From contig CP036162.1 in assembly GCA_019056595.1 (NCBI GenBank), forward strand, positions 1 to 64,000: DNA of 64,000 nucleotides, read 5' to 3'. Shown here one piece after another: positions 520 through 25,671 of the stretch; within the stretch, counting starts at the first letter, position 1, and the number at the start of each line of letters is the position of its first letter. A program made the position numbers and the translations under genes. Under the pieces are notes generated by a model that did not search any database, had not been told where the DNA came from, and saw only the letters and a program-made list of their open reading frames with translations. The DNA comes from Pectobacterium atrosepticum (lineage in GTDB: Bacteria; Pseudomonadota; Gammaproteobacteria; Enterobacterales; Enterobacteriaceae).

Positions 520-963
520 ATGACAAAAGAACAAGAATTAAGCCTGTTAACCCTCATTCAGATGAGCGGCTTTGAGTATGAACAGTATGCCGAGCGCGGG
601 GAAGACTTCCGAAACCGTCTGAGTAACGCAGTTATTAAACATCTGCCCCTGCCAGAATATTGGCGCTGTGAAGCAGAGTTGCGCGGGGAGTTTGGCGGAT
701 GTTCGCCCGTTCACCTGCATTTGACGCACGCGCAGGTAGATGACCTGGTTGTGAACGTGTGCAGCGGAAATGATGATGTGCCGCTGTGGGCGGCATACAT
801 TAAGCCGGATGAGGAAAGTACGGTTTGGATTTACATGCGCGATGAGTTTGAACCCGACACCCTGAATGACGTGTTATTGCATTTGCATGAATGCGTTATC
901 GCGGGCGCGTCATCACGCGATGAAGTGATCGTGATGATGAGAAAGCAGGGGGCAGCCGTATGA
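520..963 (+). CDS. psiB: PsiB, plasmid SOS inhibition protein
   Basis: PsiB binds free RecA and blocks SOS induction when single-stranded plasmid DNA enters a recipient. The 147-residue product matches the usual length (about 144). It shares with F PsiB the E-F-G-G...P-V block near residues 51-58, the following H-x-x-F/L-T-x-A-H/Q segment, the V-C-S-x-G/N-D region, and the general plan of a short acidic protein. The gene overlaps psiA by the ATGA of the stop and start codons (960-963), implying translational coupling, as in other psiB-psiA pairs. Placement in the leading region downstream of a ParB-like gene fits. The call rests on recognised sequence similarity, not on a search. Confidence 0.88.
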   Translation: MTKEQELSLLTLIQMSGFEYEQYAERGEDFRNRLSNAVIKHLPLPEYWRCEAELRGEFGGCSPVHLHLTHAQVDDLVVNVCSGNDDVPLWAAYIKPDEESTVWIYMRDEFEPDTLNDVLLHLHECVIAGASSRDEVIVMMRKQGAAV

Positions 964-1697
964 TCCCGAATCATTTATCAATGGTGACACTGTCACCACA
1001 AAGACAAGCGGCGTTGGCGGCTATCGTCGAAGTGGAACAGCGAAAGGCAGCAGGAAAGCGCTTGTCTGATTACCCGCACGCGCGCACGTACTTCCGGCTA
1101 CTGACGGGGAAGAGTCGCCCGCGCCGGACTGAAATGTGGCAAGCCGGCTTTTATATCGACCCCAGTGATCGGCGAGTCAATCTCAAAGATACCGAACGGG
1201 CATTCGATGTTCTCATCAGCTCTGGCGGTCAGTATTGCCCCAATCCGTTAAGTTTTTCCGTGAGAGATCAGCTGTTCCCAGAAATGTTGTTCAAGCAGCG
1301 GCAGCGGTGTGAAAAACGCAATGATCTGTCAAGCAGCAAGCGTGACAGGATGATGAGTAAGCAGAGGTTACAGAAAACCCTGTTGCACCTGAATCTGGTT
1401 GACCGTGCTGTTATTGACCTCAATTTCCAGACTCCAGACACGATAAAGTTATGGTACGACCGCTGGCAAGAGGAATTGTTTTCTGACCAACTGGAAGCCC
1501 ATTTTTGGCGTTGGGTGTCGCGGTTCCCGTCATTGCGAGAGCTAGATCAACTCCGCTGGATAAAAGAGCCACTGTGGTATGTCATCTGCGAAGCGAGCCT
1601 GATTTCTGCTGACAGCGCACCGTTTGTTAAGGCTGTTGAATCCCTGTTCGTTCCGAACAAGCTGTGTGTGCAGCAGGGAGGGATGAGCCATGAGTAA
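960..1697 (+). CDS. psiA: PsiA, plasmid SOS inhibition-associated protein
   Basis: The product of 245 residues matches the usual PsiA length (about 239) and shares several blocks with F PsiA: L-S-x-x-Q-Q/R-A-A near the start, the YPHA...FFR-like segment (about residues 39-48), LFPE/S...F near 105-111, the F-x-x-P-x-T-V/I-x-x-W-x-x-RW segment (about 155-168), F-W-x-W...RFPSL (about 182-193) and P-x-KL near the end. PsiA is always coupled to psiB, but its own biochemical function is not settled. The start overlaps psiB (ATGA). The downstream 61-residue gene starts 8 bases before the psiA stop, so the operon continues. Confidence 0.88.
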   Translation: MIPNHLSMVTLSPQRQAALAAIVEVEQRKAAGKRLSDYPHARTYFRLLTGKSRPRRTEMWQAGFYIDPSDRRVNLKDTERAFDVLISSGGQYCPNPLSFSVRDQLFPEMLFKQRQRCEKRNDLSSSKRDRMMSKQRLQKTLLHLNLVDRAVIDLNFQTPDTIKLWYDRWQEELFSDQLEAHFWRWVSRFPSLRELDQLRWIKEPLWYVICEASLISADSAPFVKAVESLFVPNKLCVQQGGMSHE

Positions 1698-6621: not shown

Positions 6622-6918
6622 ATGGAAAAGGGGACGCCCCATACCCGCCTGCATATTGTGCAGGCGTTGGTTGCTGCGGGAAGGGTCAACGCAACGAGAA
6701 CGGCGGTAACAACGGCCGACGAACTGGGTATTGATCGTGAAGGTATGCACGCTGTGATAGCTGGCCTGACGGCCAAAGATTTTCACAAAAGTATGACAAC
6801 ATATAAGGATCATACTGTCTGGCAGGATGTGTACCTGCCGACCGTGAACGGGGTGACACTGTATGTCAAAGTCACTGTTATTGATGACGTGTTGATCGTG
6901 TCATTTAAGGAGAAATAA
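6622..6918 (+). CDS. mqsR: MqsR, mRNA interferase toxin
   Basis: MqsR is a RelE-fold ribonuclease that cleaves mRNA at GCU/GCA sites. The 98-residue product has family length and the recognised pattern ME-K-x-T-P-H-T-x-L near the start, A-x-x-T-A near residues 30-34, the GL-x-x-x-D-F-x-K-S-M-T-T-Y segment (about 51-63), then W-Q-D-V-Y and the C-terminal L-Y-V-K...VSFKEK strand. The conserved Lys, Tyr and Arg of the active site appear to be present. It is followed 1 base later by mqsA, with the toxin first and antitoxin second, as typical for this system. Confidence 0.93.
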   Translation: MEKGTPHTRLHIVQALVAAGRVNATRTAVTTADELGIDREGMHAVIAGLTAKDFHKSMTTYKDHTVWQDVYLPTVNGVTLYVKVTVIDDVLIVSFKEK

Positions 6919-6919
6919 T

Positions 6920-7315
6920 ATGAAATGTCCTGAGTGTGGCGGTGCCGAACTGGTACATGACACGAAAGACGTCCCGTATTCGTGGCGGGGTAAAAAAACC
7001 ATGCTGCGCAGCGTGACAGGACTGTATTGCCCTGCATGTGGTGAGGCGGTGCTAAACAAAGAAGAAGAAGCGGAGTATCGGGGAAAAATGACTGAGTTCA
7101 GAAACTCAATTATCAATGACACGGTTGAACCCGCGTACATCGCTAATATTCGGCAACGTCTGTCATTATCTCAGCGTGAAGCTGGCCAGATTTTTGGCGG
7201 CGGTGCGAATGCATTTAGCCGTTATGAAACGGGTAAGGCACAACCTCATCCGTCAACGGTGAAATTGTTGAAAATTTTAGATCTCCATCCTGACCTGCTG
7301 AAAGAAATCCGTTAA
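6920..7315 (+). CDS. mqsA: MqsA, antitoxin and DNA-binding repressor
   Basis: The 131-residue protein has the N-terminal zinc domain with Cys3, Cys6, Cys37 and Cys40, exactly as in E. coli MqsA, which binds MqsR. The C-terminal HTH-XRE domain includes the G-G-G-x-N-A-F-S-R-Y-E DNA-reading helix (around residues 93-103) and a P-H-P-S-T-x-K-L-L segment. GGAGAA precedes the ATG at 6920. It should bind the AACCT-N3-AGGTT palindromes at 6305-6352, repressing its own operon. Confidence 0.95.
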   Translation: MKCPECGGAELVHDTKDVPYSWRGKKTMLRSVTGLYCPACGEAVLNKEEEAEYRGKMTEFRNSIINDTVEPAYIANIRQRLSLSQREAGQIFGGGANAFSRYETGKAQPHPSTVKLLKILDLHPDLLKEIR

Positions 7316-7887: not shown

Positions 7888-8391
7888 ATGAACAATTTTA
7901 CATCACCGTCCGTTTATGTTGGCACCTATCACAAATACAACTGCGGCAGCATTGCCGGACAGTGGCTGGATCTGGACGATTACAGCGATGAAGATGATTT
8001 CTATGAAGCGTGCAGGGCACTGCATGTCGATGAGGCCGACCCGGAATTCATGTTTCAGGATTATGAGGGGATCCCCGGAAGGTTTGCATCGGAGTCGTCG
8101 ATCGACTGGGATTTTATCGACGGATACAAAGAGGCTAGCAAGAATCAGCAACAGGCGGCGTATGTCGAGTGGACTGATCACTCTGGCCGGACGGACTATA
8201 GCGAGTTCGAGGATGCCTACATTGGGGAGGCGGACAGCGAAGAGGATTACGCCTATGAATACGTTCAGGACAATGGCCTGCTGGATAGTATGCCGGAATC
8301 CCTGAAGAGTTATTTTGACTATGAGTCATTCGGCCGCGATCTGTTCCTGAATGGGCTGACATGGTGCAATGGGTTCGTGTTCTCGCGCTAG
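7888..8391 (+). CDS. ardA: ArdA, antirestriction protein (DNA mimic)
   Basis: ArdA mimics about 42 bp of bent B-form DNA and blocks type I restriction enzymes. The 167-residue product has family length, is extremely acidic (many D/E runs such as D-D-Y-S-D-E-D-D), and shows the typical start P-S-V-Y-V-G-T-Y-H/A-K-Y-N-x-G-S-x-x-G-x-W-L-D-L, the D-Y-E-G-I-P segment near residue 54, and the C-terminal F-D-Y-E-x-F-G-R-D-L-x-L-x-G block. GAGGA precedes the ATG. Its position in the leading region is where ArdA is needed: early in the recipient. Confidence 0.95.
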   Translation: MNNFTSPSVYVGTYHKYNCGSIAGQWLDLDDYSDEDDFYEACRALHVDEADPEFMFQDYEGIPGRFASESSIDWDFIDGYKEASKNQQQAAYVEWTDHSGRTDYSEFEDAYIGEADSEEDYAYEYVQDNGLLDSMPESLKSYFDYESFGRDLFLNGLTWCNGFVFSR

Positions 8392-9037
8392 GCGAGTAAG
8401 CCCCGTTTAGCGGGGCAGGATACCGTTATCGGGAGGTCATGCGTCCGTGCCGGCGCCGTCAACATCTTTGCTACGCGTGTACGCGCGGCGCCTGCGGCGC
8501 CGGCCGTACGCGTCCAGCTCCTGAGCCAGTAAAGTGGCTTACGCTGCCATTGTTATAACGTGTTAATTTTATTTGTCTTATGTATCTGGCTTCTTCTTTT
8601 CCTTGTCTATGTCTCCATTAGCTGAAGCGTGTTAGTGACTTGGGCGTCCAGTCGGCTGTCATGCTGCGCACTGAGCCAGCAAGCTGTCTCTGCCCGGCCC
8701 CTTCGGGGCAGCGGGTTTCCATCCTGACGCAACACCTTCCGCTTGCAGCTGGCATTCGCCAGCGCCGCTCTCACTGACCGTCGATAAAACCTGCCGGTCG
8801 CTAAAGAGGCACGCCGTTTGCTCTCGCTGCGCCGTGCCTGGTTGCGCATCGTTCCCTTGTTGGCTGATGTCCCGTGGGATTCACGTCGCAGGTATCCCAC
8901 CACGTCGTCTCTCTATGCTGGCAAGGGAGGCTACGCCGCTACGCGCCCTTGTCAGCGCTCACCGCCGTGCTGTTCTCCTGTTTGCGACGCGAATACTCAC
9001 AGAGACATCTATTTAATCCAACAGGGGGAATTACAAC
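8392..9037. repeat. Intergenic region with GC palindrome, repeat R1 (copy b) and repeat R3 (copy a)
   Basis: No gene is supported in these 646 bases. Contents: a GCCCCG-TTTAG-CGGGGC hairpin just after ardA (8400-8416); a GC-rich palindrome GGCGCC-TGC-GGCGCC at 8487-8503, repeated at 10062-10078; repeat R1 copy b at 8641-8805, ending with a GACCG...CCGGTC stem; and from about 8865 a segment (R3) found again at 20395-20563, before a decayed paralogue of the following gene. All look like structured leading-region promoter or priming DNA rather than coding sequence. Confidence 0.55.
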
Positions 9038-9980: not shown

Positions 9981-10512
9981 CGTTACAACGAAAAAGCGTG
10001 GTCTTGTCTGCATAGGGGGGAGTCTCAGCGCCGCAAACACCTTCTGCTGCGCAAGCACGAGCGGCGCCTGCGGCGCCGGCCGTGCCAGTTCAGCTTATCA
10101 GACGCCTCAACGGTCGGTAACGATACGGCCTGTTTGTCATACCGTCACCTCTACTGTTTCTTCCTTGCTGGCTATTCTGCATGGTGCTGAGCGATGCGTG
10201 ATAAAGGCCCATTACAACAATCCTGGCCCCCTTCGGCTCCCCGCGGTGCGGGTCGTCTGCCAACTCCGCTAACCCGCTGCTGCGCACCGGCTAATCTCCG
10301 CCGAACCCCGCAAGCGGGTTTCGGGCCTGCCGGCTAATACCCGATGGCGAACGTCAACATCCTCCGCTTGCAGCTGGCGTACGCCAGCGCCGCTCTCACT
10401 GACCGCCGATAAAGCCAGGCGGTCGCTAAGGATGGCCGATCTGCTTTCCCCCACATAAATACCTGGCTGCGATAGATATCGCGTGTCGATCATCAATACC
10501 CGTTGTGAATAA
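9981..10512. repeat. Intergenic repeats: GC palindrome copy 2 and R1-related copy c
   Basis: No gene is supported. The block at 10060-10082 repeats the GGCGCC-TGC-GGCGCC palindrome of 8487-8503. From 10264 to 10436 the sequence is related to repeat R1, closest to copy b over 10361-10430 (CCGCTTGCAGCTGGC then GCCAGCGCCGCTCTCACTGACCG, split here at an inserted variable base) and ends in the same GACCG...CGGTCGCTAA stem. It also holds a CCCGCAAGCGGG hairpin at about 10307-10318. Confidence 0.5.
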
Positions 10513-10870
10513 GGGGAGTTTGGCTTGCATGTGCTGGCCACAGGCCATCACAGCATCCGGTAAATCACGCCCTGGCCGTCGCTGCGCGCCATCCAGCCCG
10601 AATCAACCGGACGCCTTCGGCGAGCCAATGTGAAGGTTATCCGTCGTCTGAAAGTCAGCTGCGGCTTGGCAGGGTGAAGGTCGGCGCGGGGCTGTATAGC
10701 AGCCTGTCACCAGCTTCGCTGGGCTTCCGGCGGGATAACCTTCGGAGTCACCTTTAGCGACATTTCCGCCTGCCATGCGCGTAGCGCATTTGTAAGGGAC
10801 GTTGCGCACTGCTCACGCCCCTGAATGCATTGAAATTGGCGATAAATAATTACTAAAAATACCCTATAAA
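10513..10870. repeat. Leading-region repeat R2, copy a
   Basis: A segment of roughly 350 bases, starting at GGGAGTTTGGCTTGC, that recurs at 18509-18857 with many substitutions but the same order of blocks: CATCCGGTAAATCACGCCC, CAACCGGACG-x-CTTCG-x-CGAGCC, CTGAAAGTCAGCTG, GCAGGGTGAAGGTCGGCGCG, CCAGCTTCGCTGGGCTTCCG, TATTTCCGCCTG and GCATTTGTAA. Each copy ends exactly at a KorA-type operator/promoter. It is full of short stems (CCGGACGCCTTCGGCG; CCAGCTTCGCTGG). It contains no credible gene. Confidence 0.75.
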
Positions 10871-10911
10871 TGATACTAAAAGTAGACTTTAAGTGATGGT
10901 TAATCTATAAT
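10871..10911 (+). promoter_or_regulatory. Promoter with KorA-type operator over the -35 box (copy 1)
   Basis: The element TGATACTAAAAGTNNACTTT is present with the 12-bp palindrome AAAGTAGACTTT at 10879-10890. A -35 (TAGACT, 10883-10888) lies inside the palindrome and a perfect -10 TATAAT (10906-10911) follows 17 bases later. The same arrangement occurs at 17813 and 18858. It would drive the operon beginning at 10999. The TrfB/KorA-like protein encoded at 17917 is the natural candidate repressor. Confidence 0.75.
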
Positions 10912-10998
10912 TAATACAGTTAGTTAGATGATTTTTACGGTGTCAGGCGGTAGTAAAAACCGGTCACTGTAATAGAGCCAACACTAAGGAACAGCAGT

Positions 10999-11375: not shown

Positions 11376-11888
11376 ATGACTGCTTTTACTGTAAATACCA
11401 TCAACAACCTGCCAGCTGGCCTGCGAAATGTGATCGGCAAGCATTTCGCGGATAACCGTTACAGCGAAACCCGGGATTATTACGACCAGCTGTCCTCGCG
11501 CTATCGAGTTACGGTCTGTTTTCATGCAGGGCTGAAAAAGCACCATACCACCATGGCGTTTGATGACATGACTATGTCAGAGCGTGAACAAATCGTGCAG
11601 GCACTGGATGAACTGCGTGGGGCATTTCCAAAAAACAGAAAGGCGGGCAGCAGACTGATGACGTTCTTGACCTGTCTGCGTGTCAGCGAACGCCGGACGC
11701 TGTATCGACATGCCGGACTGTCTGCTCAGGATTTCCTGCTGCCGGTCTCCGCTATTGACGGTGAAGACGAACTGAGAAAGCCAATTGCTGCGGCATTAGA
11801 TGAACTGTGTTCACTGTTTGCTGATATGCCACACATCCTGACGTCTGTCCAGGCAGAAGATTATCTGGCTAAGCTGGAGAGAGTGTGA
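11376..11888 (+). CDS. Hypothetical protein (170 aa)
   Basis: The ATG at 11376 follows GAGGG (11363-11367) and starts M-T-A-F-T-V; in-frame codons upstream overlap the previous gene and are less likely. The protein is soluble and mostly helical, with a central M-S-E-R-E-Q-I-V-Q-A-L segment and R-V-S-E-R-R-T-L-Y. Its stop overlaps the next start (TGATG), so expression is coupled to the PP-loop enzyme. No known family is recognised. Confidence 0.55.
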   Translation: MTAFTVNTINNLPAGLRNVIGKHFADNRYSETRDYYDQLSSRYRVTVCFHAGLKKHHTTMAFDDMTMSEREQIVQALDELRGAFPKNRKAGSRLMTFLTCLRVSERRTLYRHAGLSAQDFLLPVSAIDGEDELRKPIAAALDELCSLFADMPHILTSVQAEDYLAKLERV

Positions 11889-12970
11889 TGCATAGCTATG
11901 ATGACAATAAAATTATCCCAGGTCTGCGTAAGCAACTGGTATCCAGTGACACGATCGCTGCAGCGAAGACGTATTTTTCCGCGCCAGCTATCGACCTGGA
12001 TAGCTACGATAGCATTATCATCTGCATGTCAGGCGGGAAGGACTCAATAGCTTGTCTGCTGCACCTGATTGACCTGGGCGTTAATCTGTCACGCGTTGAG
12101 CTCTGGCATCATGATGTGGATGGCAGAGAAGGCTCTACATTAATGGACTGGCCGTTTATTGCTGACTACAACATAAAGCTGGCGCAAGTGTTTGGGGTGC
12201 CCCTTTATTTTTCCTGGCTGGAAGGGGGATTTGAAGGGGAAATGCTCAAGAATGAGAGTTACAGCCTGCCTCATCATATTGAAACCCCTGAAGGAAAATT
12301 GGTATTGCCCCGTGATACGGCGCGGGCGAAGCCAGGTTCACGCCTTAAGTTTCCTCAGTTGTCTGCCAGCTTGCAAACCCGTTGGTGCAGCTCCGCGCTG
12401 AAAATTGATGTTGGCCGACGTGCCCTCAATAACCAGAGCCGTTTCGATGGCCAGCGGGTGCTTTTTATCACCGGCGAACGCCGTGAAGAAAGCGCGAACC
12501 GTGCCAGATATAACCAACTGGAGCCGCATTCCTGCGATCGCCGTTCCGGCAGAAAGGGCCGTTGGGTAGACACCTGGCGCCCTGTACTCGATTGGTCTGA
12601 AGAACGGGTATGGAATACATTGCAGCGGTACGGTGTTCTTGCGCCGGTGCCATACCGACTGGGTTGGGGCCGATCGTCATGCATGAAATGTATATTCAGC
12701 GATGCTGTGTTGTGGGCAACGCTGCGCCATTATTTCCCAGGCAGTATCGATGACATCATGGGTTATGAAGAGCGGTTTGATACGACGATTAGTCGTAATC
12801 GAATTCCCGTCCGGGAGTTGTCAGTAAAAGTTAAACCACTCGATATCGACGACAGTGATGCACTTGTCCAAGCTGTTCGTCGTGAGTATTTGCTTCCTGT
12901 TTTAACATCTTCTGAACAATGGCAACTGCCTGCGGGGGCGTACAAGAAAACAGGGTGTGGTCCAACATAA
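11888..12970 (+). CDS. PP-loop ATPase of the PAPS reductase / DndC-like superfamily
   Basis: The 360-residue product has the PP-loop S-G-G-K-D-S at about residues 48-53, followed by a D-x-x-x-x-x-x-H-H-D-V-D-G segment where PAPS reductases have the substrate loop, W-C-S-x-x-L-K-I (about 160-167), the G-x-R-x-x-E-S-x-x-R signature (about 195-204) and a C-M-K-C motif near residue 263. Members adenylate or reduce sulfur compounds or modify nucleic acids; those on phages and plasmids have no settled role. Whether this is a nucleic-acid modifier cannot be read from the sequence. It overlaps the upstream gene by one base (TGATG). Confidence 0.75.
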   Translation: MHSYDDNKIIPGLRKQLVSSDTIAAAKTYFSAPAIDLDSYDSIIICMSGGKDSIACLLHLIDLGVNLSRVELWHHDVDGREGSTLMDWPFIADYNIKLAQVFGVPLYFSWLEGGFEGEMLKNESYSLPHHIETPEGKLVLPRDTARAKPGSRLKFPQLSASLQTRWCSSALKIDVGRRALNNQSRFDGQRVLFITGERREESANRARYNQLEPHSCDRRSGRKGRWVDTWRPVLDWSEERVWNTLQRYGVLAPVPYRLGWGRSSCMKCIFSDAVLWATLRHYFPGSIDDIMGYEERFDTTISRNRIPVRELSVKVKPLDIDDSDALVQAVRREYLLPVLTSSEQWQLPAGAYKKTGCGPT

Positions 12971-12985
12971 TATTGGAGAAATAAG

Positions 12986-13405
12986 ATGGCCATTCAGGCG
13001 CATGTGATATATACCGCAATTGTTGAATCAGTCGTTGTGAATCGTCAACGGGAAGACGTGCTGACAAAAATCTGCGAGACAAGTGGTTTTATCGACGTAT
13101 CCTTACCAGAGGATTCGCCAATGGACTATGTTGCTGTCTTTATTGCTGATGCAATTGCAAGGAAAAATTGTTTTGAAATCAATGGTAAAGTTGTTAGCGT
13201 TCCCAGCATTTCGGCTGAACACTGTAGATGCAGCGGGAAAATAAATCTTGGCCAAAGATTTGGGTCTAGTTGCGTAGTAAGGGGGTACTTGACGCTTCAG
13301 CTTGATGAGCTGAAAAACCGTGAATGGCTGGCAGCGCTGGGAGCGTCCGTATTAAATGAAAAGCCTGCTAGTTATTTTAAATTAATGAATTCCCCTTCTG
13401 TTTAA
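12986..13405 (+). CDS. Hypothetical protein (139 aa)
   Basis: GGAGAAATA lies before the ATG at 12986, 15 bases after the PP-loop gene, so it is probably in the same operon. The sequence is mixed alpha/beta with a H-C-R-C-S-G motif near residue 73 and no membrane segment. I do not recognise the family. It is the last gene before a 120-base AT-rich gap that holds an internal promoter-like site. Confidence 0.5.
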   Translation: MAIQAHVIYTAIVESVVVNRQREDVLTKICETSGFIDVSLPEDSPMDYVAVFIADAIARKNCFEINGKVVSVPSISAEHCRCSGKINLGQRFGSSCVVRGYLTLQLDELKNREWLAALGASVLNEKPASYFKLMNSPSV

Positions 13406-13420
13406 ATAAAGTAAAAAGCA

Positions 13421-13449
13421 TTGTTTTATTCTCATTATGAGAATATATT
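13421..13449 (+). promoter_or_regulatory. Internal promoter with a 17-bp palindrome between -35 and -10
   Basis: The palindrome ATTCTCAT-T-ATGAGAAT (13428-13444) fills the spacer between TTGTTT (13421-13426) and TATATT (13444-13449), 17 bases apart. This is the layout of a repressor-controlled promoter. It lies in the only sizeable AT-rich gap of the operon and precedes the block 13528-17558 that ends with the AcrVA2-like gene and an HTH gene. The HTH protein (17100-17558) is a plausible ligand; that is inference. Confidence 0.6.
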
Positions 13450-13527
13450 AATGATGTAATAAATAACTTTTTATTTCCACCAACCGATGGTGCGTAATCG
13501 GCAAAATCTCAAATTAAGGAGATGTAA

Positions 13528-14058
13528 ATGGGTTCTGCATACTACTGCTGTGCCGGATGTAAAAATGATTTTAAAGTTTCACGCGGCAATAATAGCGCGT
13601 CAGCACGCTACGCTAAATGGCTCGAATCTCAGGGCTATAAGTGCGACGAATGTCGCAAAGCAGATCGGGCCGCAGAGTATGCCGCGAAAGTGGCTGCAGC
13701 AGCGGTCGATTCTCGTAACCAACACCTTCCAGAGTTGAGTGGCACCGAAAAACAGGTGCAATGGGCTCAGTCTATTCGTCTCGATGTACTCTCCAAAATG
13801 GATGAGGCTCTGCTTGCTGTTCAGAAAAGTTTTTCGCGTGAACGATTCCTGCGTAATTTGTCGGATGAGGGACGAGAAGAAATCCTTGACGGTATTTCAT
13901 TAATTGCTCATGAAATTCAGCAGTGTGCTGATGCACGTACCTGGATAGACGATTACCGTTTTTATACGTTAGAACGCCATATTACCGTTCAATTTGAGAA
14001 ACGAATGAATACGCTGGCGCCAACCGCATTTGCTGAATACGCGAGGACGGATAAATGA
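13528..14058 (+). CDS. Zinc-finger-like hypothetical protein (176 aa)
   Basis: AAGGAGA (about 13516-13522) precedes the ATG at 13528. The N-terminus has C-C-x-x-C (residues 7-11) and C-D-E-C (about 39-42), a probable four-Cys zinc ribbon. A G-T-E-K-Q-V-Q-W-A-x-S-I-R segment (about 73-85) recalls small plasmid and phage zinc-ribbon proteins of unknown role. The rest is helical. The stop overlaps the next start by ATGA (14055-14058), implying coupled translation. Its function is unknown. Confidence 0.6.
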   Translation: MGSAYYCCAGCKNDFKVSRGNNSASARYAKWLESQGYKCDECRKADRAAEYAAKVAAAAVDSRNQHLPELSGTEKQVQWAQSIRLDVLSKMDEALLAVQKSFSRERFLRNLSDEGREEILDGISLIAHEIQQCADARTWIDDYRFYTLERHITVQFEKRMNTLAPTAFAEYARTDK

Positions 14059-14393
14059 AAACACGTACTGATTTCGTTGTAGGCATTATCGAGCAGTTTG
14101 ATGCTGAATTTATGCCCGATCAGGCTAATCGTCGTGCGGTGTCATTTGGCCTGGAAAAGAAATTTGGTGAGTGGAACGTGCCGGAGCTGCAGACGTTGGC
14201 TATTACTCTAAACAACGACGTAGTCACGAGTATCGTTGTTAATAGCATGCAAAAACCGAAAAATAAGTATGTGCGCGTTACAGATAAGCAGCGTGCGGTT
14301 GTCACGAATGCGCTGTTAGCGAAATACGGTACGTCGCGGGCTGTGTATGCGACCGCGCTCGGTATATCAGAGTCCGAGCTGACAGCGAACTAA
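14055..14393 (+). CDS. Hypothetical protein (112 aa)
   Basis: It starts inside the stop codon of the preceding gene (ATGA). The protein is a small basic alpha/beta protein; the second half (K-Q-R-A-V-V-T-N-A-L-L...Y-A-T-A-L-G-I-S-E-S-E-L) could fold as a helix-turn-helix-like helical bundle, but no clear family match is recognised. The next gene follows after 13 bases. Confidence 0.5.
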   Translation: MKTRTDFVVGIIEQFDAEFMPDQANRRAVSFGLEKKFGEWNVPELQTLAITLNNDVVTSIVVNSMQKPKNKYVRVTDKQRAVVTNALLAKYGTSRAVYATALGISESELTAN

Positions 14394-14406
14394 TGAGGAT
14401 CGGACG

Positions 14407-15021
14407 GTGAGCCTTGATTTTTCGGACCTAACCGATGATCAGCTAATCGAATTGGCGCGGGCATGCTGTGAAGAAGCCATGCGCCGAAACCCAGCTGCTC
14501 AGCAAGCCATGCAGGACATGATGCTATCAGAGGCAGAAAAGGCGAGAATCGCTAAAAACGCGTCTGAGATGGAAATACGGGCACAGCGCGCACGCGAACG
14601 CGAACGTATAGCAAAAGAAACGAAGGCCCAATTGCGGTACGAGGAAGAGGCCAGAGCGGCTGCCGAGCGTGAAAAGTCTGCGAAGGCGGCGGCGAAGCGT
14701 ACACGCGATAGTGCAGAACAGCGAAAACACCGCGCAATGGCGCTACTGCGCCAGGCCGCTGAATTAACTCGCCGCCCACCGCACGATATCGGGATTGTTT
14801 ACTGTAAAACAAACCGCGGCCTCAGAGTGATGATTAATCCCAATAGCGGGCGCTACACGACGACTCATATTGTCGACTACTACGTCGACACTGAAGAAAT
14901 TCATACAGTTCAAGCGCTCGTTAAGAGCAAAACCGAACTGGCCGCGTTTTGTGCCGGTATAGCAGCCGGTTTCCCGCTTGATACTTTTATTGCCGGTAGT
15001 AACTACACCTGGGCATCTTGA
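14407..15021 (+). CDS. Coiled-coil protein with GTG start (204 aa)
   Basis: It begins at GTG 14407, with GAGGATCGGA 4-13 bases upstream; no ATG fits as well. Residues 1-30 are helical (D-L-T-D-D-Q-L-I-E-L-A), residues about 40-110 form a long Ala/Glu/Arg-rich coiled coil, and residues 120-200 look like a compact alpha/beta domain (G-I-V-Y-C...R-V-M-I-N-P-N-S-G-R-Y). It lies 9 bases before the vWA gene. I do not recognise the family; the coiled coil suggests oligomerisation or scaffold use. Confidence 0.55.
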   Translation: MSLDFSDLTDDQLIELARACCEEAMRRNPAAQQAMQDMMLSEAEKARIAKNASEMEIRAQRARERERIAKETKAQLRYEEEARAAAEREKSAKAAAKRTRDSAEQRKHRAMALLRQAAELTRRPPHDIGIVYCKTNRGLRVMINPNSGRYTTTHIVDYYVDTEEIHTVQALVKSKTELAAFCAGIAAGFPLDTFIAGSNYTWAS

Positions 15022-15030
15022 GGTTCTGGA

Positions 15031-15636
15031 ATGAAAAATTTACCCGTTAATCCGCTGCAGGCACTGATAAAAAAATCGGCCACGCAGCTGCCTGTTCAGA
15101 CAGGGGCTGTCGATCGTTATGCTCAACGTCTAAATAGGGCCGACGGCCCGCTCATCATCCTGGCAGATGTTTCGCCTTCAATGGACGAACTGGCCTGGGG
15201 ACGACGTCGACGCATTGATTTATTGCGAGAATCCGTCGATGCGTTATTGCGGCAGCATACGGACCCTATCCGGATCATTGCGTTTGCGGGGGAACCAGAC
15301 GACAGCGTCGAGACTATCCCACCGCACCCGCAGCGGGGAGGAACGGCAATGCATCTGGCGATTGATTGTGCGGCTAAATTTAACCCGCGTGCGACGTTGA
15401 TCATCAGTGATGGCCAACCAGATGACGAGGATCTGGCTATTGCGGCCGCACATGCGCTGCCTGGTCGTATCGATACGCTCTACATTGGTCCTGATATCAG
15501 TATTTCTGCCGTGAGATTTATGCGCCGTCTGGCAGAAGTCGGTTGCGGCCGACATTCTGCGAACGATATATCAAACACCAGTCCGCTGGCATTAACTCAC
15601 AGCATTACAAAACTTCTCATAGGGCAAAGCGTATGA
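15031..15636 (+). CDS. Von Willebrand factor A (vWA) domain protein
   Basis: The 201-residue product is essentially one vWA domain with a complete metal-ion-dependent adhesion site: D-V-S-P-S (about residues 48-52), the Thr in G-G-T-A-M (about 107-111) and the Asp in I-S-D-G-Q-P (about 130-135). Such stand-alone bacterial vWA proteins usually work inside protein complexes, often with AAA+ ATPases, but no ATPase is seen next to it. The stop overlaps the next start (ATGA at 15633-15636). GGTTCTGG upstream is a weak ribosome-binding site. Confidence 0.75.
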   Translation: MKNLPVNPLQALIKKSATQLPVQTGAVDRYAQRLNRADGPLIILADVSPSMDELAWGRRRRIDLLRESVDALLRQHTDPIRIIAFAGEPDDSVETIPPHPQRGGTAMHLAIDCAAKFNPRATLIISDGQPDDEDLAIAAAHALPGRIDTLYIGPDISISAVRFMRRLAEVGCGRHSANDISNTSPLALTHSITKLLIGQSV

Positions 15637-16058
15637 TCTCGATTGCAAATAACGGGCAGTCAATTGAGCACACCACGTATTTTGATAGCCAGCATGCAGC
15701 TGCAGGTTTTTTGTATGCAAGCTGGAATGCCGGTGCATTACGCCTTTTGCTCCCAGACTCAGCGCTCGACATGCTCATCGAGATGAAAACGGGAACGCAG
15801 GTCGGCGTCACTCGCGGGACATTGCAAGGCCGCAAGGATGCTCTTGAGATTATGTTTGACGATAATAGCGATGCACCGTATGCCATTCATATCGTGCGTG
15901 AGCAGTACGACAATCTTATCCGTGATGAGAATGTCAGTATCACAGTTTCAGTGTGGGGGCGGTCAGGAAAACTGGCTGAGTGGCCAGGATTCTATCGCAC
16001 AGCGCAGACGCTGCCATTTCTCGAACCGCTCCCGGAGATCAAGCATGGTTCAGTTTGA
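15633..16058 (+). CDS. Hypothetical protein (141 aa) coupled to the vWA gene
   Basis: The ATG at 15633 overlaps the vWA stop (ATGA) and has AGGGC 8 bases upstream; a longer frame opening at 15543 would overlap the vWA gene for 90 bases and is rejected. The protein is an acidic alpha/beta protein without membrane segments. Its last 14 bases overlap the AcrVA2-like gene, so the two are translationally linked. I recognise no family. Confidence 0.55.
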   Translation: MISIANNGQSIEHTTYFDSQHAAAGFLYASWNAGALRLLLPDSALDMLIEMKTGTQVGVTRGTLQGRKDALEIMFDDNSDAPYAIHIVREQYDNLIRDENVSITVSVWGRSGKLAEWPGFYRTAQTLPFLEPLPEIKHGSV

Positions 16059-17103
16059 CAAGAAATCTCACAGGGCTCGCGAAGCTTTGCTTGATGCTGG
16101 GCGTGATTATCCCGATTGCTGGAAGACTGGCGACAAATTACGTGAAATGAACGGCGTGGGGATGTCATGGCCAGAATGGTGCTACCTGCCCTTAGGAGGG
16201 TGGTATGCGGTTGTATCGCAGCAGCGGGTAGGTGGCGGGCTGTTAACGTCGTTGCGCGATAGTGCTGATGTGTCTCGTCTGGGTGCGTTGGGTGCATGGA
16301 GGTTAACGCAGGGGATATACCGTTTCGATGAGACATTACTCACTCAGCTGATAGATACCCCGCTGGGGAGTGAAACACCACTGCCGAGTGAGGTCCTATA
16401 CCGTTTACCCGAGTGGTGTATGTACATTGAAATGCCCGATGTGGCTGATGGCGTGCATGGCTTTTGGGTTCATCTGGAGCACGATGTTAACGACGGTCGC
16501 GATGAGCTACGTCTGCTCGTTGACAGCGACAATGCGTTATACCCGCTGATTTTACACCTAGGAAATTGGACAATTACTGAAGCAATGGATCGGGCGTTGG
16601 AAGAAGCACGGGTCCAGGCAGAGCGAATGACGCAAGCACATGTTAACGCAGAATACATGACGAAACAGAAATACAAGGCGAATGAGGTTGTTTTGCTGCC
16701 AGCACTATCTCTACTGCTGTACATCTGCTCTGAATCAGCAGAATACAGCCGGCGTGGGAAAGATGATGTGCCAAGTATGCCGCGGCCGAAAAAAACAAAG
16801 CGCGGATGGCGCCTGTTCCCTGCTGAGGGGCCAGTGGAATGGGATGTTGGTGTGCGGCTAGGTGCCGCATTGAGACAATCACACCAGTTGTCTGACAATC
16901 AGGATAGCGGCACACATGCCAGTCCGCGTGCTCATATGCGGCGGGCTCACTGGCATGGTTTTCGGGCTGGACCGCGGAAACGTGAAGATGGTACGGATAT
17001 TCCGAATAGTGAGCGTAAATTTTCACTGAAATGGTTGCCGCCGATCCCAGTTAATGTCGGAGACGATGAGCTGTTACCGGCAACGCTAAGGGTCATCAAA
17101 TGA
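16045..17103 (+). CDS. AcrVA2-like protein (putative anti-CRISPR, Cas12a)
   Basis: The ATG at 16045 is chosen because GGAG (16034-16037) lies 7 bases upstream and the protein then starts where AcrVA2 homologues do; the frame is open further upstream but overlaps the preceding gene. The 352-residue product matches, from memory of Moraxella AcrVA2 (about 322 aa): L-G-A-W-R-x-T-x-G-I-Y (about 86-96), L-P-(D/E)-W-C-(V/M)-Y-(V/I) (about 127-134), H-G-F-W after a D/G-rich turn, R-L-G-x-x-(L/V)-R (about 280), and R-x-H-x-R-R-(A/G)-H-W-H-G-(F/Y) followed by F-x-x-(K/R)-W-x-P-x-x-V-N. AcrVA2 lowers Cas12a levels by acting on its mRNA or nascent product. Whether this homologue does so, or has another target, is unknown. 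Confidence 0.8.
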   Translation: MVQFDKKSHRAREALLDAGRDYPDCWKTGDKLREMNGVGMSWPEWCYLPLGGWYAVVSQQRVGGGLLTSLRDSADVSRLGALGAWRLTQGIYRFDETLLTQLIDTPLGSETPLPSEVLYRLPEWCMYIEMPDVADGVHGFWVHLEHDVNDGRDELRLLVDSDNALYPLILHLGNWTITEAMDRALEEARVQAERMTQAHVNAEYMTKQKYKANEVVLLPALSLLLYICSESAEYSRRGKDDVPSMPRPKKTKRGWRLFPAEGPVEWDVGVRLGAALRQSHQLSDNQDSGTHASPRAHMRRAHWHGFRAGPRKREDGTDIPNSERKFSLKWLPPIPVNVGDDELLPATLRVIK

Positions 17104-17558
17104 CACCGGAAGAGCTACAGGCGTGGCAGGAACGTATGGGCCTGACGCCGAAAGCAGCAGCTGAACAACTGGGTGTCAGCCTTGCCACGTATTACGGGTA
17201 CCTGTCCGGTAAAAACCGGAACACAGGAAAGCCCGTGTCAATGGATAGGCAGACCGCGCTGGCCTGCGCCGCGCTTGAAGCTGGGCTCATGCCGATCGGG
17301 GGGGCAGCAGCAACTGACGCAGAGGAGAGGAGGCGGACGGTTAACCTGGGATTGCTGGCATCTGCATTGAACCTTAACCGCAAGGAGCTGGCTGGGATTG
17401 TCACCCTGGGCGGTTTAAAAACATCAGCAAGCCAGGCCGACAGATGGCTGCGTTCTGAGTCATCAAAGAAAGGCTACGCGCACATTACAGACGATCAGTT
17501 TCACGCATTCTGTGTTGGATTGAAACCGTGGCTTGACGTTAATGAAGGAGAGAGTTAA
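17100..17558 (+). CDS. HTH regulator fused to a DUF1456-like domain (Aca-like position)
   Basis: It starts at the ATGA overlap with the AcrVA2-like stop. Residues 1-50 form an HTH (Q-E-R-M-G-L-T-P-K-A-A-A-E-Q-L-G-V-S-x-A-T-Y-Y-G-Y-L-S-G), while residues about 78-148 resemble one DUF1456/YehS repeat (N-L-G-L-L-A-S-A-L-N-L...I-V-T-L-G-G...A-D-R-W-L-R-S-E). Small HTH genes directly behind anti-CRISPR genes are typical Aca repressors of the acr promoter. This one differs by the extra domain. The palindrome at 13428-13444 is a candidate operator. Repressor function is inferred. Confidence 0.65.
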   Translation: MTPEELQAWQERMGLTPKAAAEQLGVSLATYYGYLSGKNRNTGKPVSMDRQTALACAALEAGLMPIGGAAATDAEERRRTVNLGLLASALNLNRKELAGIVTLGGLKTSASQADRWLRSESSKKGYAHITDDQFHAFCVGLKPWLDVNEGES

Positions 17559-17812
17559 CGTAAATTGGTTCCCCATGAGCAGTTTATTGTAGTTTTCACC
17601 GCCGCGCAGGCAGATTGACGCTGATAATGCCCTCATTATTCCATCGTCAAATGTTAACTGCTGTACATGGGGATAAGTCGTTATTAGGTTGTAAATGTTT
17701 TGCTTCCCCGTTTTACGGGGATCATCTCAGAACAACATACACAGAAGCGCGACAGCACTTCTGTGTATGTCCCCTCCCGAATCTGCTTGAATAACCTGCT
17801 CACCATTCAAAA
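17559..17812. other. Intergenic region with a long inverted repeat (17735-17770)
   Basis: No gene is supported. It contains a CCCCG-TTTTA-CGGGG hairpin (17706-17720), possibly ending the upstream operon, although no T-run follows. It also has a perfect 13-bp inverted repeat, ACATACACAGAAG (17735-17747) and CTTCTGTGTATGT (17758-17770), around a 10-base loop. The second could be a weak terminator or a protein-binding site upstream of the KorA-type promoter. Confidence 0.5.
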
Positions 17813-17853: not shown

Positions 17854-17916
17854 TTGCCGCATTGACCTTATTTATCAGTGTACTTATTCGCTAGATTACA
17901 GATTGTGAGAAAATAT

Positions 17917-18219
17917 ATGGCTAGAGAACGTATCTCCAGTGAGGAGTGGGCGCGCCTGCTACCAGCACTATCAAAGTGCGCCAAAGTTACGATCGAAATG
18001 GCTCATGAAATTTTAGTCGAAGGGCGACGCCAGGTTGATGTCGCTGAGAAATATGGCAGAACTAAAACAACGGTTAACGCGGCAAAACGGCGTGTGTTAG
18101 AGCTTTGTGAAGAGGTTATCTCGGCACCTGACCTGGAATTCGTAGAGGTCTGGCTCCCCCGAGAAGAAGCGCAGCGCGTTCTTCAGATGGCCAGTAAGTA
18201 CGCCGTGAATAAAAAATAA
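17917..18219 (+). CDS. TrfB/KorA-like transcriptional repressor
   Basis: The ATG at 17917 gives a 100-residue protein, matching IncP KorA/TrfB (about 101); the 13 in-frame residues before it look like non-coding sequence. The segment T-I-E-M-A-H-E-I-L-V-E-G-R-R-Q (about 26-40) matches the KorA T-I-E-I-A-R-x-V-L-V-D-G-(K/R)-x-Q block. It is followed by the HTH V-A-E-K-Y-G-R-T-K-T-T-V-N-A-A-K-R-R-V. The C-terminal part (V-W-L-P-x-x-E-A) corresponds to the dimerisation region. Its own promoter and two others in this window share a palindrome, so it probably controls leading-region genes. Confidence 0.8.
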   Translation: MARERISSEEWARLLPALSKCAKVTIEMAHEILVEGRRQVDVAEKYGRTKTTVNAAKRRVLELCEEVISAPDLEFVEVWLPREEAQRVLQMASKYAVNKK

Positions 18220-18508
18220 CAATTACCAGTTTATGGCCAGCTCTAGGCTCGAGCTGGCACCTGTCCGTTTCCGTGTTTTCCCTCTGCTTTTCCCATCCTA
18301 TACATCGATAGATTTCATGCGCTGGCCATCCTGGCCTGCATTTGTTATGGGCGTCCGAGCGGGTTGTCATGCTGCGCACTGAGCCAGACAAGCTGTCTCG
18401 GCCCTTCTGGTTTCCATCTCTGGCGCAATCCCACTGAAGAATAAATCTCATAACACCCAGGAACTGAGTCGCCGAATGTCTGTTTGGGCATGAAGTCGGC
18501 TGTGGATG
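18220..18508. repeat. Intergenic region with repeat R1 (copy d, 18348-18432)
   Basis: No gene is supported. The R1 copy here is short: TGGGCGTCCGAGCGGG, TGTCATGCTGCGCACTGAGCC, AAGCTGTCTCGGCC and TTTCCATC, then it diverges and lacks the terminal GACCGGC stem. A CTAGGCTCGAGCTGGC-type short inverted repeat (AGCTCTAG-GCTCGAGCT) lies at about 18239-18257, soon after the KorA-like stop. Confidence 0.5.
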
Positions 18509-18857
18509 GGGGGAGTTGGCTTGCGCGTGTCGGCCGCTGGCCGTCACGGCATCCGGTAAATCACGCCCCTGTCGTCGCAAGCGCCACCAGGTCCGCTCAA
18601 CCGGACGACTTCGTCGAGCCAATGTGGGCTATGCGTCGCCTGAAAGTCAGCTGGGCTTTGCAGGGTGAAGGTCGGCGCGGGGCTGTATATGAGCGTGTAA
18701 CCAGCTTCGCTGGGCTTCCGGCGGGATAACCCTCTGAGCCACCTTCAGCGGTATTTCCGCCTGCATGCGCTACGCGCATTTGTAAAGGACTCTGCGCGCA
18801 GCTCGGGCCATTTACATACAAAAATATACCAAATCTAGTTAATTTGATGTCATTCAA
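18509..18857. repeat. Leading-region repeat R2, copy b
   Basis: This copy of the segment at 10513-10870 has the same order of conserved blocks (CATCCGGTAAATCACGCCC, CAACCGGACGACTTCGTCGAGCC, split here by a base change, GAAAGTCAGCTG, GCAGGGTGAAGGTCGGCGCG, CCAGCTTCGCTGGGCTTCCG) and ends at the third KorA-type operator. Identity is high in stems and lower in loops, suggesting selection on structure. Confidence 0.75.
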
Positions 18858-22490: not shown

Positions 22491-22570
22491 TTGACGTGTA
22501 TAATGGCCTAAAAAACGGGACAGGATGTGCATTTGTAATACCGCGCACGCACGATATTACAAATGCTACC
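22491..22570. other. oriT: Origin of transfer (oriT), R64/ColIb type, with nic site and NikA inverted repeat
   Basis: The core AAAAAACGGGACAGGATG (22510-22527) is the R64 nic region; on the - strand it reads CATCCTG followed by TCCCG, with the expected nick opposite 22520/22521. Next is the NikA-type inverted repeat GCATTTGTAATA (22529-22540) and TATTACAAATGC (22555-22566), with the GCGCACGCAC spacer also as in R64. A TATAAT at 22499-22504, just before nic, may be the -10 of the nikAB promoter, so relaxosome binding would repress it. The strand nicked sends the DNA left of oriT (positions below 22520) first. Confidence 0.93.
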
Positions 22571-22610: not shown

Positions 22611-22946
22611 ATGAGTGATAGAGTGTCTCGAAGAGGGACTGAAAAACGGCAGAAAACCGTTATCAAAACCCTGAGATTTACGCCCGAAGAAATCGAGAAG
22701 ATTGAGGCTGAGGCTGAAGCGACAGGACAAAGTGTGTCGGCTTATATCCGAAATGCAGCGATGAACAGAAAGGTGATTTCAAAAGTTGACGACACTTTTC
22801 TGACTGAGCTTTTGAGGCTAGGTCGTTTGCAAAAACATCACTTTGTTGAAGGAAAACGAATAGGTGATAAGCAGTACTCTAACGTGTTAGTCGCGATTAC
22901 CGAACTGGCCAATACACTCAGAAATCAATTGATGAATAACGAATGA
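22611..22946 (+). CDS. nikA: NikA, oriT-binding relaxosome protein
   Basis: NikA is a ribbon-helix-helix protein that binds the oriT inverted repeat, bends it and recruits the relaxase. The 111-residue product has the R64 length (about 109). The RHH pattern is clear: a beta strand K-T-V-I-K-T-L-R-F-T-P-E-E, then helix I-E-K-I-E-A-E-A and G-Q-S-V-S-A-Y-I-R-N-A-A. It is 44 bases after the oriT inverted repeat and 22 bases before nikB. It should autoregulate the nikAB promoter. Confidence 0.95.
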   Translation: MSDRVSRRGTEKRQKTVIKTLRFTPEEIEKIEAEAEATGQSVSAYIRNAAMNRKVISKVDDTFLTELLRLGRLQKHHFVEGKRIGDKQYSNVLVAITELANTLRNQLMNNE

Positions 22947-22968
22947 TCCTAAAGGAAAAATCGAAATT

Positions 22969-25671
22969 ATGATCCCTGTCATTCCACCGAAACGAAAAGA
23001 TGGCAAGTCCTCATTTGGGGATCTTGTTTCTTATGTTTCTGTGCGTGATGAGGAGAAGAATGATGACCTTTTGGAAGCCATAAGATCATCAGGTCTTAAA
23101 CCAGAAATGCCACACCGTAGTCGTTTTTCTAGGTTGGTAGATTACGCGACAAAGCTGCGTGATGAGTCGTTTATTTCCCTGGTTGATGTGATGCCTGATG
23201 GTGGTGAATGGGTGAATTTTTACGGCGTTACGTGTTTTCATAATTGCACGTCTATCGAAACTGCTGCTGATGAGATGGAGTATTCCGCTCGCAAAGCGAA
23301 GTTTGCGCACAACGATAGCGACCCTGTGTTCCACTACTTGCTTAGTTGGCAGTCTCATGAAAGCCCGCGCCCAGAGCAGATTTATGATTCTGTGAGGCAT
23401 TCCCTTAATCGACTTGGACTGGCCGAACACCAGTTTGTTTCAGCTGTTCACACCGACACAGATAACCTCCATGTCCATGTTGCAGTCAATCGTGTCCATC
23501 CTGATAACGGTTATCTCAACAGGCTTTCATACAGCAAAGAAAAACTGAATAAAGCATGCCGAGAAATGGAACTAAAGCATGGTTTTGCACCAGACAATGG
23601 CTCTTTCGTTATTGGTCCAGATAAACGTATTGTTCGCCGGACATCGATAGAGCGTGACAGGCAAAGCGCCTGGAAGCGGGGCAGGACACAGAGTCTTAAA
23701 GAGTATATTGCAGATACAGCTATTGCCGGATTGCGTGAAGAACCGGTTACTGACTGGGCTGCTCTTCATCAGCGTTTTGCAAAAGAAGGCCTGTTTCTTT
23801 CTGATGAAAATGGTGTACTGAAGGTGAAAGACGCTTGGGATCGTGAACGATCCGGTGTCATTCTCACTGCGTTTGGCCATTCATGGAATACCGACAAATT
23901 GATTCGTAGGTTGGGAGCATTTACACCGCCCACGCAAGATATTTTCCATCAGGTGGCACATGTAGGACGTTACGATCCTAAAAAAATCAGTACGCCTGTT
24001 CGTCCTGAACAAATGTCGGAAGAACTTAGCCTGGCTGATTATGCCACGACGAAACTGCGTACATCGCTACTGGCTCTTGACCAGGATCCTACCCAAAGAA
24101 ATATACATACTGTACATCGATTACTCGCGGATTCCGGTCTCTACCTGCGTGAACAACATGGTCGATTGGTTATTTGTGATGGGTATGATAAGACGCGTAC
24201 ACCAGTGCGTGCAGAACGAATCTGGCCAGCTCTGACTAAAACGGTAATGGCGAGTTATGAGGGAGGATGGCAACCAGTTCCTCACGATATTTTCCTGCAG
24301 GTTACCCCATCAGAACGTTTCACTGGCGGTGAACTTAAAGCCAGACCTGTGAGCGATCTGCAGTGGAGAAAACTACGAACGGGATCTGGTCCTCAGGGTG
24401 CGATTAAGCGTGAAATTTTCTCTGATAAAGAGAGTTTGTGGGGGTATGCGATATCGCACTGTCGCCATGAAATCGAAACACTTGTCAGTGGTGGGCAGTT
24501 CTCTTGGGAACGTTGCCATGAGTTGTTTGCTCGACAGGGGCTATTACTGATGCGAGAGCATCAGGGACTGGTCGTTATGGATGCATACAACCATGATCAA
24601 ACACCTGTCCGAGCGAGTTATGTTCATCCTGATCTGGCACTTGCACGGGCAGAACCCCATGCCGGTTCGTTTGAACGAGTGCCAGTGGATATCTTTGAAC
24701 GTGTTCAACCTGAAAGCCGTTATAACCCTGACCTGGCTGTCAGTGACCGTGATATTCCGGGCATGAAACGTGATCCAGAATTACGCCGACTGCGCCGCGA
24801 GGAGCGTGCAGGTGCGCGTGAAGATCTGAAGGCGCGCTATGCTGCCTGGCGTGCGAACTGGCGCCGTCCTGACCTGCAAGGACGGGAACGGTATCAGCAA
24901 ATTCATAGTAATTGCAGAAGGCGTAAAGCAATTATCCGTGCACAACAGCGAGATCCGCTTGTCAGAAAGCTGCATTATCATATTGCCGAAGTACAACGTA
25001 TGCAGGCTTTGATTGAGCTAAAAGAAAGTATGAAGGCGGAACGACTAGAACTTGTTGGTGAGGGTAAATGGTATCCATTGTCGTATAGACAGTGGGTAGA
25101 GGTGGAGGCATTGAAAGGTGACAGGGCTGCGATATCGCAGCTGCGAGGGTGGGATTATCGTGATCGCCGGCAAGACAATGCCATTTTAACGACAGATCAA
25201 CGTTGCGTTGTTATCTGCGAGCCAGGTGGCACACCTGTGTATCTGAATATGCCTGGGTTGAAAGCTGCACTGCAAAAGAACGGCAGTGTCCGGTTCAATG
25301 ATGCTAATACAGGCCAGCATGTCTGTACTGACTTTGGCGATCGGGTAGTGTTCAGGAATAGAAATGATTTTGCATCCCTTCAGCAGGAACTGAATAAGGT
25401 TTCTCCTGTTCTGTTCTGTAGAGATCCGAGAATAGGGTTTTCGCCAGAGGGTCGAGATGTGAAATTTAACCAAGCTATTGCTGAAATGGTGGGTTGGTAT
25501 AACGTCAATCGGGATCGGGATGAAGAGCAATTCCGTATTAATCGACCTGAAGTGGATAGGATGAGGGTTGAGTGTGAACAGATTTTCCGAGAAATGGGAT
25601 CGAAAGAGGTGGGCTCCGATGAGGGATATCAGGAACCACGTAATGGGTGGGTGCCGCCGTCACCTCGTTAA
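22969..25671 (+). CDS. nikB: NikB, conjugative relaxase (MOBP1)
   Basis: NikB nicks oriT and stays covalently attached to the 5' end of the transferred strand. The product has 900 residues, as in R64 (899). Tyr22 (in L-V-S-Y-V-S-V) is the expected nucleophile by alignment with RP4 TraI Tyr22. The HxDxxNxHxHxxxN motif (H-T-D-T-D-N-L-H-V-H-V-A-V-N) lies near residues 161-174 and holds the metal-binding histidines. Three related central segments (L-x-x-x-G-L-x-L...P-V-R-A...F) follow, as in other NikB proteins. AAAGGAAAAA precedes the ATG. A strong terminator lies downstream. Confidence 0.96.
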   Translation: MIPVIPPKRKDGKSSFGDLVSYVSVRDEEKNDDLLEAIRSSGLKPEMPHRSRFSRLVDYATKLRDESFISLVDVMPDGGEWVNFYGVTCFHNCTSIETAADEMEYSARKAKFAHNDSDPVFHYLLSWQSHESPRPEQIYDSVRHSLNRLGLAEHQFVSAVHTDTDNLHVHVAVNRVHPDNGYLNRLSYSKEKLNKACREMELKHGFAPDNGSFVIGPDKRIVRRTSIERDRQSAWKRGRTQSLKEYIADTAIAGLREEPVTDWAALHQRFAKEGLFLSDENGVLKVKDAWDRERSGVILTAFGHSWNTDKLIRRLGAFTPPTQDIFHQVAHVGRYDPKKISTPVRPEQMSEELSLADYATTKLRTSLLALDQDPTQRNIHTVHRLLADSGLYLREQHGRLVICDGYDKTRTPVRAERIWPALTKTVMASYEGGWQPVPHDIFLQVTPSERFTGGELKARPVSDLQWRKLRTGSGPQGAIKREIFSDKESLWGYAISHCRHEIETLVSGGQFSWERCHELFARQGLLLMREHQGLVVMDAYNHDQTPVRASYVHPDLALARAEPHAGSFERVPVDIFERVQPESRYNPDLAVSDRDIPGMKRDPELRRLRREERAGAREDLKARYAAWRANWRRPDLQGRERYQQIHSNCRRRKAIIRAQQRDPLVRKLHYHIAEVQRMQALIELKESMKAERLELVGEGKWYPLSYRQWVEVEALKGDRAAISQLRGWDYRDRRQDNAILTTDQRCVVICEPGGTPVYLNMPGLKAALQKNGSVRFNDANTGQHVCTDFGDRVVFRNRNDFASLQQELNKVSPVLFCRDPRIGFSPEGRDVKFNQAIAEMVGWYNVNRDRDEEQFRINRPEVDRMRVECEQIFREMGSKEVGSDEGYQEPRNGWVPPSPR

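Follow-up and report, generated by a model that had tools for sequence, protein, structure and literature searches.

An AcrVA2- and FinQ-related protein in the leading region of a Pectobacterium atrosepticum plasmid: a possible target-specific gene silencer

A 352-residue protein encoded in the leading region of a Pectobacterium atrosepticum plasmid belongs, by sequence comparison, to a single superfamily with the Cas12a inhibitor AcrVA2 and the plasmid transfer inhibitor FinQ. Because this large superfamily of mobile-element proteins includes both a CRISPR blocker and an inhibitor of transfer, the gene probably acts by silencing a single specific gene once the plasmid has entered a new cell. 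We propose that its product is a target-specific mRNA silencer acting in that cell, and we judge the chances of this proposal as a whole to be about even. The DNA analysed here (the window) comprises bases 1-64000 of a 112,252-base plasmid; a second contig is the 4.92-Mb chromosome, and the plasmid records that best cover this plasmid come from Pectobacterium. The features discussed are collected in Table 1.

Table 1. Features of the window, with positions counted from its first base; L numbers denote compared loci
Feature	Coordinates	Strand	Basis and remarks
PsiB (520-963) and PsiA (960-1697)	520..1697	+	NCBIfam, E 5e-27 and 3e-70, both slightly below curated cut-offs
ArdA antirestriction protein	7888..8391	+	Pfam, E 1e-33
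Intergenic element upstream of the gene row	10504..10998		Repeated at 18501; possible CUP-like control region
Eight-gene segment absent from P. parmentieri pPAR01	12972..17811		Plasmid comparison
Cassette gene	12986..13405	+	ORF
Cassette gene, phrog_16123-like	13528..14058	+	Weak relatives near family genes in L043, L097, L158 and L171
Cassette gene	14055..14393	+	Weak relative in L034 (E 4e-5)
Cassette gene	14407..15021	+	Relative in L034
vWA-like protein	15031..15636	+	Relative directly 5' of the family gene in Vulcaniibacterium (L034)
141-aa protein	15633..16058	+	Relative directly 5' of the family gene in Mariprofundus (L076)
AcrVA2/FinQ-superfamily protein, 352 aa (family gene)	16045..17103	+	ORF, PDB-sequence search, profile, FinQ alignment, dN/dS
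Codons of the C-terminal core, residues 296-331 (HMRRAHWH ... G ... W)	16930..17037	+	Alignments, 12-member count
HTH and DUF1456-like protein, 152 aa	17100..17558	+	Pfam below gathering scores; HTH neighbours elsewhere; possible operon repressor
KorA/ArdK-type (TrfB) repressor, downstream of the cassette	17878..18219	+	PF16509, E 3.5e-15; relative annotated ArdK
Second copy of the upstream element, 84% identical	18501..18804		Self-comparison
Nic-type site after an inverted repeat, presumed oriT	22520..22527	-	Motif and repeat
MobA-type protein and MOBP relaxase	22611..25671	+	Profile matches

Homology and family tree

Judged by its divergence, the open reading frame is a real gene under purifying selection. 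Third positions account for 59 of the 91 nucleotide differences between the window copy and that on P. versatile p.MYP201603, with 31 residues changed and a dN/dS of 0.15; the copy on P. odoriferum p.Jk2_1 differs at 1 residue (99.7% identity). The frame overlaps the preceding gene by 14 bases and the following one, an HTH gene, by 4.

The sequence-only reading had described the protein as a homologue of AcrVA2, and database searches bear this out. In a phmmer search against PDB sequences (E up to 1), AcrVA2 (7ci1/7ci2) was the sole match, at E 7.3e-17. The profile search, named beforehand as one check on that reading, was built on 101 sequences and again matched AcrVA2 alone, with a significant E of 4.2e-58 over residues 3-320 of the 323-residue chain. 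All four ordered blocks that had been picked out by eye were found, as LGAWRLTQGIY, LPEWCMY, RAHMRRAHWHG and WLPPIPVN, and at the level of sequence a chance resemblance to AcrVA2 is ruled out. The protein also matches phrog_6160 (E 6.9e-54, residues 22-339), which is a sequence family only and gives no mechanism; none of the Pfam, NCBIfam and PADLOC models matched it at the limits used.

FinQ belongs to the same group. Its alignment with the window protein spans residues 85-348 at 29% identity (E 7e-29); a Moraxella phage AcrVA2-type protein matches FinQ at E 8e-20, and AcrVA2 itself does so at E 3.4e-16, the one further match in that search being a hydrogenase at E 0.04, which is noise. Plasmid records matching the window protein number 548, all except two of them (546) below 60% identity, and FinQ is the annotation on 53 of 60 among the plasmid matches listed. 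On these alignments, AcrVA2, FinQ and the window protein are members of one superfamily.

Among phage records, 38 contain a match (Erwinia 23, Moraxella 5, Leptospira 4, Lactobacillus 2, Pasteurella 2, Shewanella 1 and one unnamed), and the Shewanella match is annotated AcrVA2. In scans for the motif H[MIV]RR[AG]HWH, 112 of 150 stretches from species genomes and 113 of 136 from viral contigs proved to hold relatives, and the best 80 of each set were kept. Within Enterobacterales, family matches were found in 7 of 394 genomes, the plasmid's own included; some of these matches are short, with E about 1e-6, and were left unused as possible chance hits.

A tree of 116 rows spans eight phyla, with many rows from metagenome bins. 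In it the AcrVA2-type proteins of Moraxella and Shewanella form one clade (support 100, branch 2.9) and FinQ pairs with Pantoea L106 (support 99, branch 2.3), apart from the window protein, which is in neither grouping and lies among poorly resolved prophage and genome relatives. The tree was made by a quick method that leaves 49 of 112 inner branches open and brings long branches together; the FinQ pair joins a long branch, the placement of FinQ is unsure, and we use only the two named groupings and the window protein's absence from them. AcrVA2 and FinQ thus look like two specialised offshoots of the superfamily. The window protein has all four motif blocks of Moraxella AcrVA2 (PDB 7ci1/7ci2) together with its C-terminal HxRRxHWHG...W core, but it falls outside the AcrVA2 clade and is encoded in a plasmid leading region rather than a prophage, in a host with no detected Cas12a.

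Conserved core

The window protein carries the core HxRRxHWH..G plus W330. In an alignment of 101 rows (A2), residues H297, R299, R300, H302, W303 and H304 are invariant, although this invariance, like that of the core in 112 rows, is partly circular because most rows were found by the scan requiring H[MIV]RR[AG]HWH. For this reason, the claim of conservation rests on a fresh count in 12 members that tblastn had found independently of the motif. H297, R299, H302 and G309 are kept in all 12 members, R300 and H304 in 11 and W303 in 10. Residues 286-310 are the best conserved part of these proteins, with a mean share of the commonest residue of 0.61 compared with 0.29-0.44 elsewhere, and residues 141-212 and 236-262 are among the least conserved.

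Two core positions differ in the window protein, which has A296 in place of the P found in 11 of the 12 members and R307 in place of the W found in 10; read from the alignment, these departures would count against a silencing role for this particular protein. The P. versatile copy (L196:19351-20863) has Q at the otherwise kept H302, and the adjoining HTH frame is broken and annotated as two genes, which together suggest a decaying copy. Given that loss, the function may be dispensable. A comparison of peptide-pocket residues was dropped, as the docking-derived residues (PMC10846135) differ even between AcrVA2-type proteins and decide nothing.

Plasmid setting

The family gene lies on the leading side of the presumed oriT, among the genes for ArdA and PsiA/PsiB, whose presence in the same leading region had been asserted from sequence alone and is confirmed by Pfam and NCBIfam matches. 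The presumed oriT is marked by CATCCTGT, which we take to be a nic-type motif. The motif stands between the mob genes, immediately after an inverted repeat; alone it is insignificant, with 12 matches in the window against 8.4 expected. Its place on the minus strand after the repeat makes that strand the presumed T-strand, which would then be the template for the plus-strand genes below 22.5 kb, the family gene included. The orientation thus fits the earlier suggestion that the gene is on the strand read early after entry, a fit that depends on the nic motif and the inverted repeat.

In IncN plasmids, according to the portions of PMC6289460 and PMC9723621 drawn on here, ArdK binds CUP elements of the leading region. 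We infer by analogy that the window's leading region may be under similar ArdK-type control, a candidate repressor and a repeated element both being present. The repeated part of the upstream element covers about 310 bp (10504-10814). Searched with the stretch around it, 94 plasmid records gave a match, which extends over most of that stretch in only 3; the majority of the matches listed share about 60 bp (about 10551-10610, E 6e-6), and one that was examined has an IncN leading-region setting with TrfB-related and CcgAII genes nearby. This shared stretch, the TrfB/ArdK-type gene and ArdA liken the region to the ArdK-controlled leading regions of pKM101-type IncN plasmids, whereas the MOBP relaxase, the I-type transfer genes and the AcrVA2/FinQ-like cassette set the window plasmid apart from them. 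Other intergenic elements are also repeated within the leading region (4369-4547, 8641-8818, 8730-8807 and 10355-10432); they are 87-94% alike and unlike the 10504/18501 pair. The region further contains an MqsR/MqsA toxin-antitoxin pair (6622-7315), with the toxin gene first.

The leading region is common to p.Jk2_1 at about 94%, and a related one is found on P. parmentieri pPAR01, with 82-94% identity in matching pieces. On pPAR01 the matches that flank the eight-gene segment stand 37 bases apart. The segment is a 4.8-kb cassette and an optional part of the leading region; pPAR01 also lacks other pieces, for example the MqsR/MqsA pair and a DUF4942 gene. A Vulcaniibacterium locus (L034:3499-6274) has relatives of the genes starting at 14055 and 14407 and of the vWA, family and HTH genes, with the order kept and the weakest match at E 4e-5; L117 is the same contig, which is also listed as a viral contig. 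Directly before the cassette the window encodes a PAPS-reductase-like protein (11885-12970), and, as read from the sequences, family genes in L043, L048, L116 and L119 likewise have genes of this kind upstream.

The family gene followed by an overlapping HTH gene resembles the layout of acr-aca operons. In contrast to such operons, the HTH protein here is a putative repressor, and an anti-CRISPR function of the family gene is not supported.

Proposed function and alternatives

In the sections cited here, AcrVA2 is described as recognising nascent N-terminal residues of Cas12a and triggering decay of the mRNA in translation (PMC13131331, PMC10403363), and, in part of a 2025 meeting report, as also lowering other nucleases when tagged (PMC12908700). 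The cited text on FinQ states that it ends F tra transcription at several sites in a Rho-independent manner (PMC8744291, citing Ham and Skurray 1989). Both proteins reduce a particular foreign message, and the account that most simply covers the two would be mRNA silencing guided by protein, in which the effector core stays the same and the targets change. For FinQ, use of the AcrVA2 mechanism would be an analogy, set beside the Rho-independent transcription termination given in that text.

We therefore word the proposal conditionally. The window protein would act as a target-specific gene silencer in the cell just receiving the plasmid, its variable middle part recognising one protein during its synthesis and its conserved C-terminal core (HxRRxHWH...G...W) taking part in the loss of the mRNA under translation, in the way reported for AcrVA2 and Cas12a. 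The target would probably be the mRNA of a recipient defence or of a resident rival element, and probably not that of cas12a. The gene would be expressed early, with the entering strand as template and subject to ArdK-type control, and its overlapping HTH neighbour would damp the operon. A wider version is held more tentatively, at somewhat short of an even chance: AcrVA2 and FinQ would be specialised branches of a large mobile-element family of nascent-peptide-triggered mRNA silencers, what is described as 'transcription termination' by FinQ in the F tra operon would come down to mRNA decay coupled to translation, and the window protein would represent the family in a leading region, with a target that is new. 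Such protein-guided silencers would then be carried by many phages and plasmids, each directed against a different rival or defence gene.

The protein might instead be a FinQ-like fertility inhibitor, which would silence not a recipient defence but the transfer genes of a rival plasmid in the same cell. Among the plasmid-borne relatives considered here, FinQ alone has a reported function. It is encoded on conjugative I-type (IncI) plasmids and has the same core as the window protein, which also comes from a conjugative plasmid; by tblastn the window protein scores higher to FinQ (94 bits) than to Moraxella phage AcrVA2-type proteins (64 bits). However, the two proteins occupy separate branches of the tree, and finQ is a transfer-region gene, placed between excA and trbA, whereas the window gene is in the leading region. 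Furthermore, the 99.7% identical copy is on p.Jk2_1, whose transfer genes are F-type, in contrast to the I-type transfer genes and MOBP relaxase of the window plasmid. We consider a fertility inhibitor unlikely, though less so than the other alternatives. The preferred silencer proposal is itself touched by the last observation, in that I-type and F-type plasmids carrying the gene may differ in their needs, which would speak against it.

Considerably less probable is an inhibitor of the type I-F system of this host range, working by mRNA silencing or direct binding. The host chromosome does encode such a system (G000:C2:1914676-1927472), comprising Cas1, Cas3 with a Cas2 domain, Csy1-Csy4 and two arrays that together hold 47 repeats at up to 2 mismatches. 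No exact match to the plasmid was found among 48 spacers cut from the arrays and from looser repeats (up to 4 mismatches). Similarity to an integrase-type gene of the plasmid (Pfam PF00589; C1 91890 and 92200) is seen in two spacers, with 6 and 8 mismatches of 33; both protospacers adjoin CC, and the best matches in a shuffled control (48 spacers, 15 rounds) had 9-11 mismatches, so that a third spacer with 9 mismatches is within chance. Relatives of the plasmid may thus have been targets of the I-F system. Nevertheless, both spacers are inexact, the 6-mismatch one is flanked by two degenerate repeats away from the main arrays, and neither is evidence of inhibition. The window protein is unrelated to known I-F inhibitors, and the family is spread far beyond this host group.

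A toxin-antitoxin-like pair, in which the family protein would degrade mRNA as the toxin and the overlapping HTH gene would supply the antitoxin, we regard as very unlikely. The 4-base overlap with a small HTH gene would suit such a pair, and a same-strand HTH gene occurs within 300 bp of the family gene at 19 of 163 distinct loci, window included, while the remaining 18 bins of 300 bp contain 0-2 each (10 same-strand HTH matches in total, 4 of them seeds). These counts come from an HTH model seeded with 14 ORFs chosen as neighbours of family genes, and 10 of the 19 close matches are seeds and 9 are not. Against the pairing, 144 of the 163 loci have no such HTH match (divergent HTH genes could have escaped the model), finQ on pJIE174 has no annotated HTH regulator next to it, and the HTH frame adjoining the P. 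versatile copy is broken.

The presence of Cas12a was assessed with the model TIGR04330, chosen because it matched in the Pseudomonadota genomes, where it found a full-length Cas12a in 1 of 398; 14 named control genomes gave no match in either search. Pfam REC1 was discarded as a probe, having matched nowhere, controls included. TIGR04330 detected Cas12a in none of 33 family-bearing genomes (32 drawn from 80 genome loci, plus the window's own), many of which are drafts of unstated completeness. Together with its rarity in Pseudomonadota, this makes Cas12a an unlikely usual target of the family, many drafts being among the genomes. A true AcrVA2, that is, a Cas12a inhibitor protecting the plasmid in type V-A CRISPR recipients and the option that the sequence-only reading had placed first, is accordingly hardly credible despite the homology and the position among establishment genes, given a host of type I-F and a protein outside the AcrVA2-type clade. 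The anti-CRISPR function inferred in that reading is thus not borne out, FinQ being in the same superfamily, and the reading was right to leave the target open.

Implications

Work on AcrVA2 reportedly mentions homologues outside Cas12a hosts. As far as our searches reach, the link between FinQ and AcrVA2 and the leading-region cassette are new: no paper treating AcrVA2 together with FinQ, or FinQ with anti-CRISPR, was found in the open-licence PMC literature. In the portion of a leading-region anti-defence paper covered here (PMC11541004), FinQ and Cas12a are absent and both occurrences of 'acrVA' are acrVA5.

If the mechanism is shared, a fertility-inhibition effect of 1989 and a recent anti-CRISPR mechanism become one testable question, namely whether the loss of F tra mRNA under FinQ depends on translating the N-terminus of a tra protein. 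A shared mechanism would also mean that the many unannotated prophage and plasmid relatives are silencers with undiscovered targets rather than 'Cas12a inhibitors', some of them probably acting in the first minutes after plasmid entry. An anti-CRISPR label based on homology alone would mislead the annotation of such relatives.

A separate matter of annotation concerns FinQ on E. coli pJIE174 (L005:5734-6819). The annotated start at 6040 (codon ATC) omits about 100 codons, and the open frame from the ATG at 5734 includes the conserved WRYTKKIY block; this FinQ gene model looks truncated.
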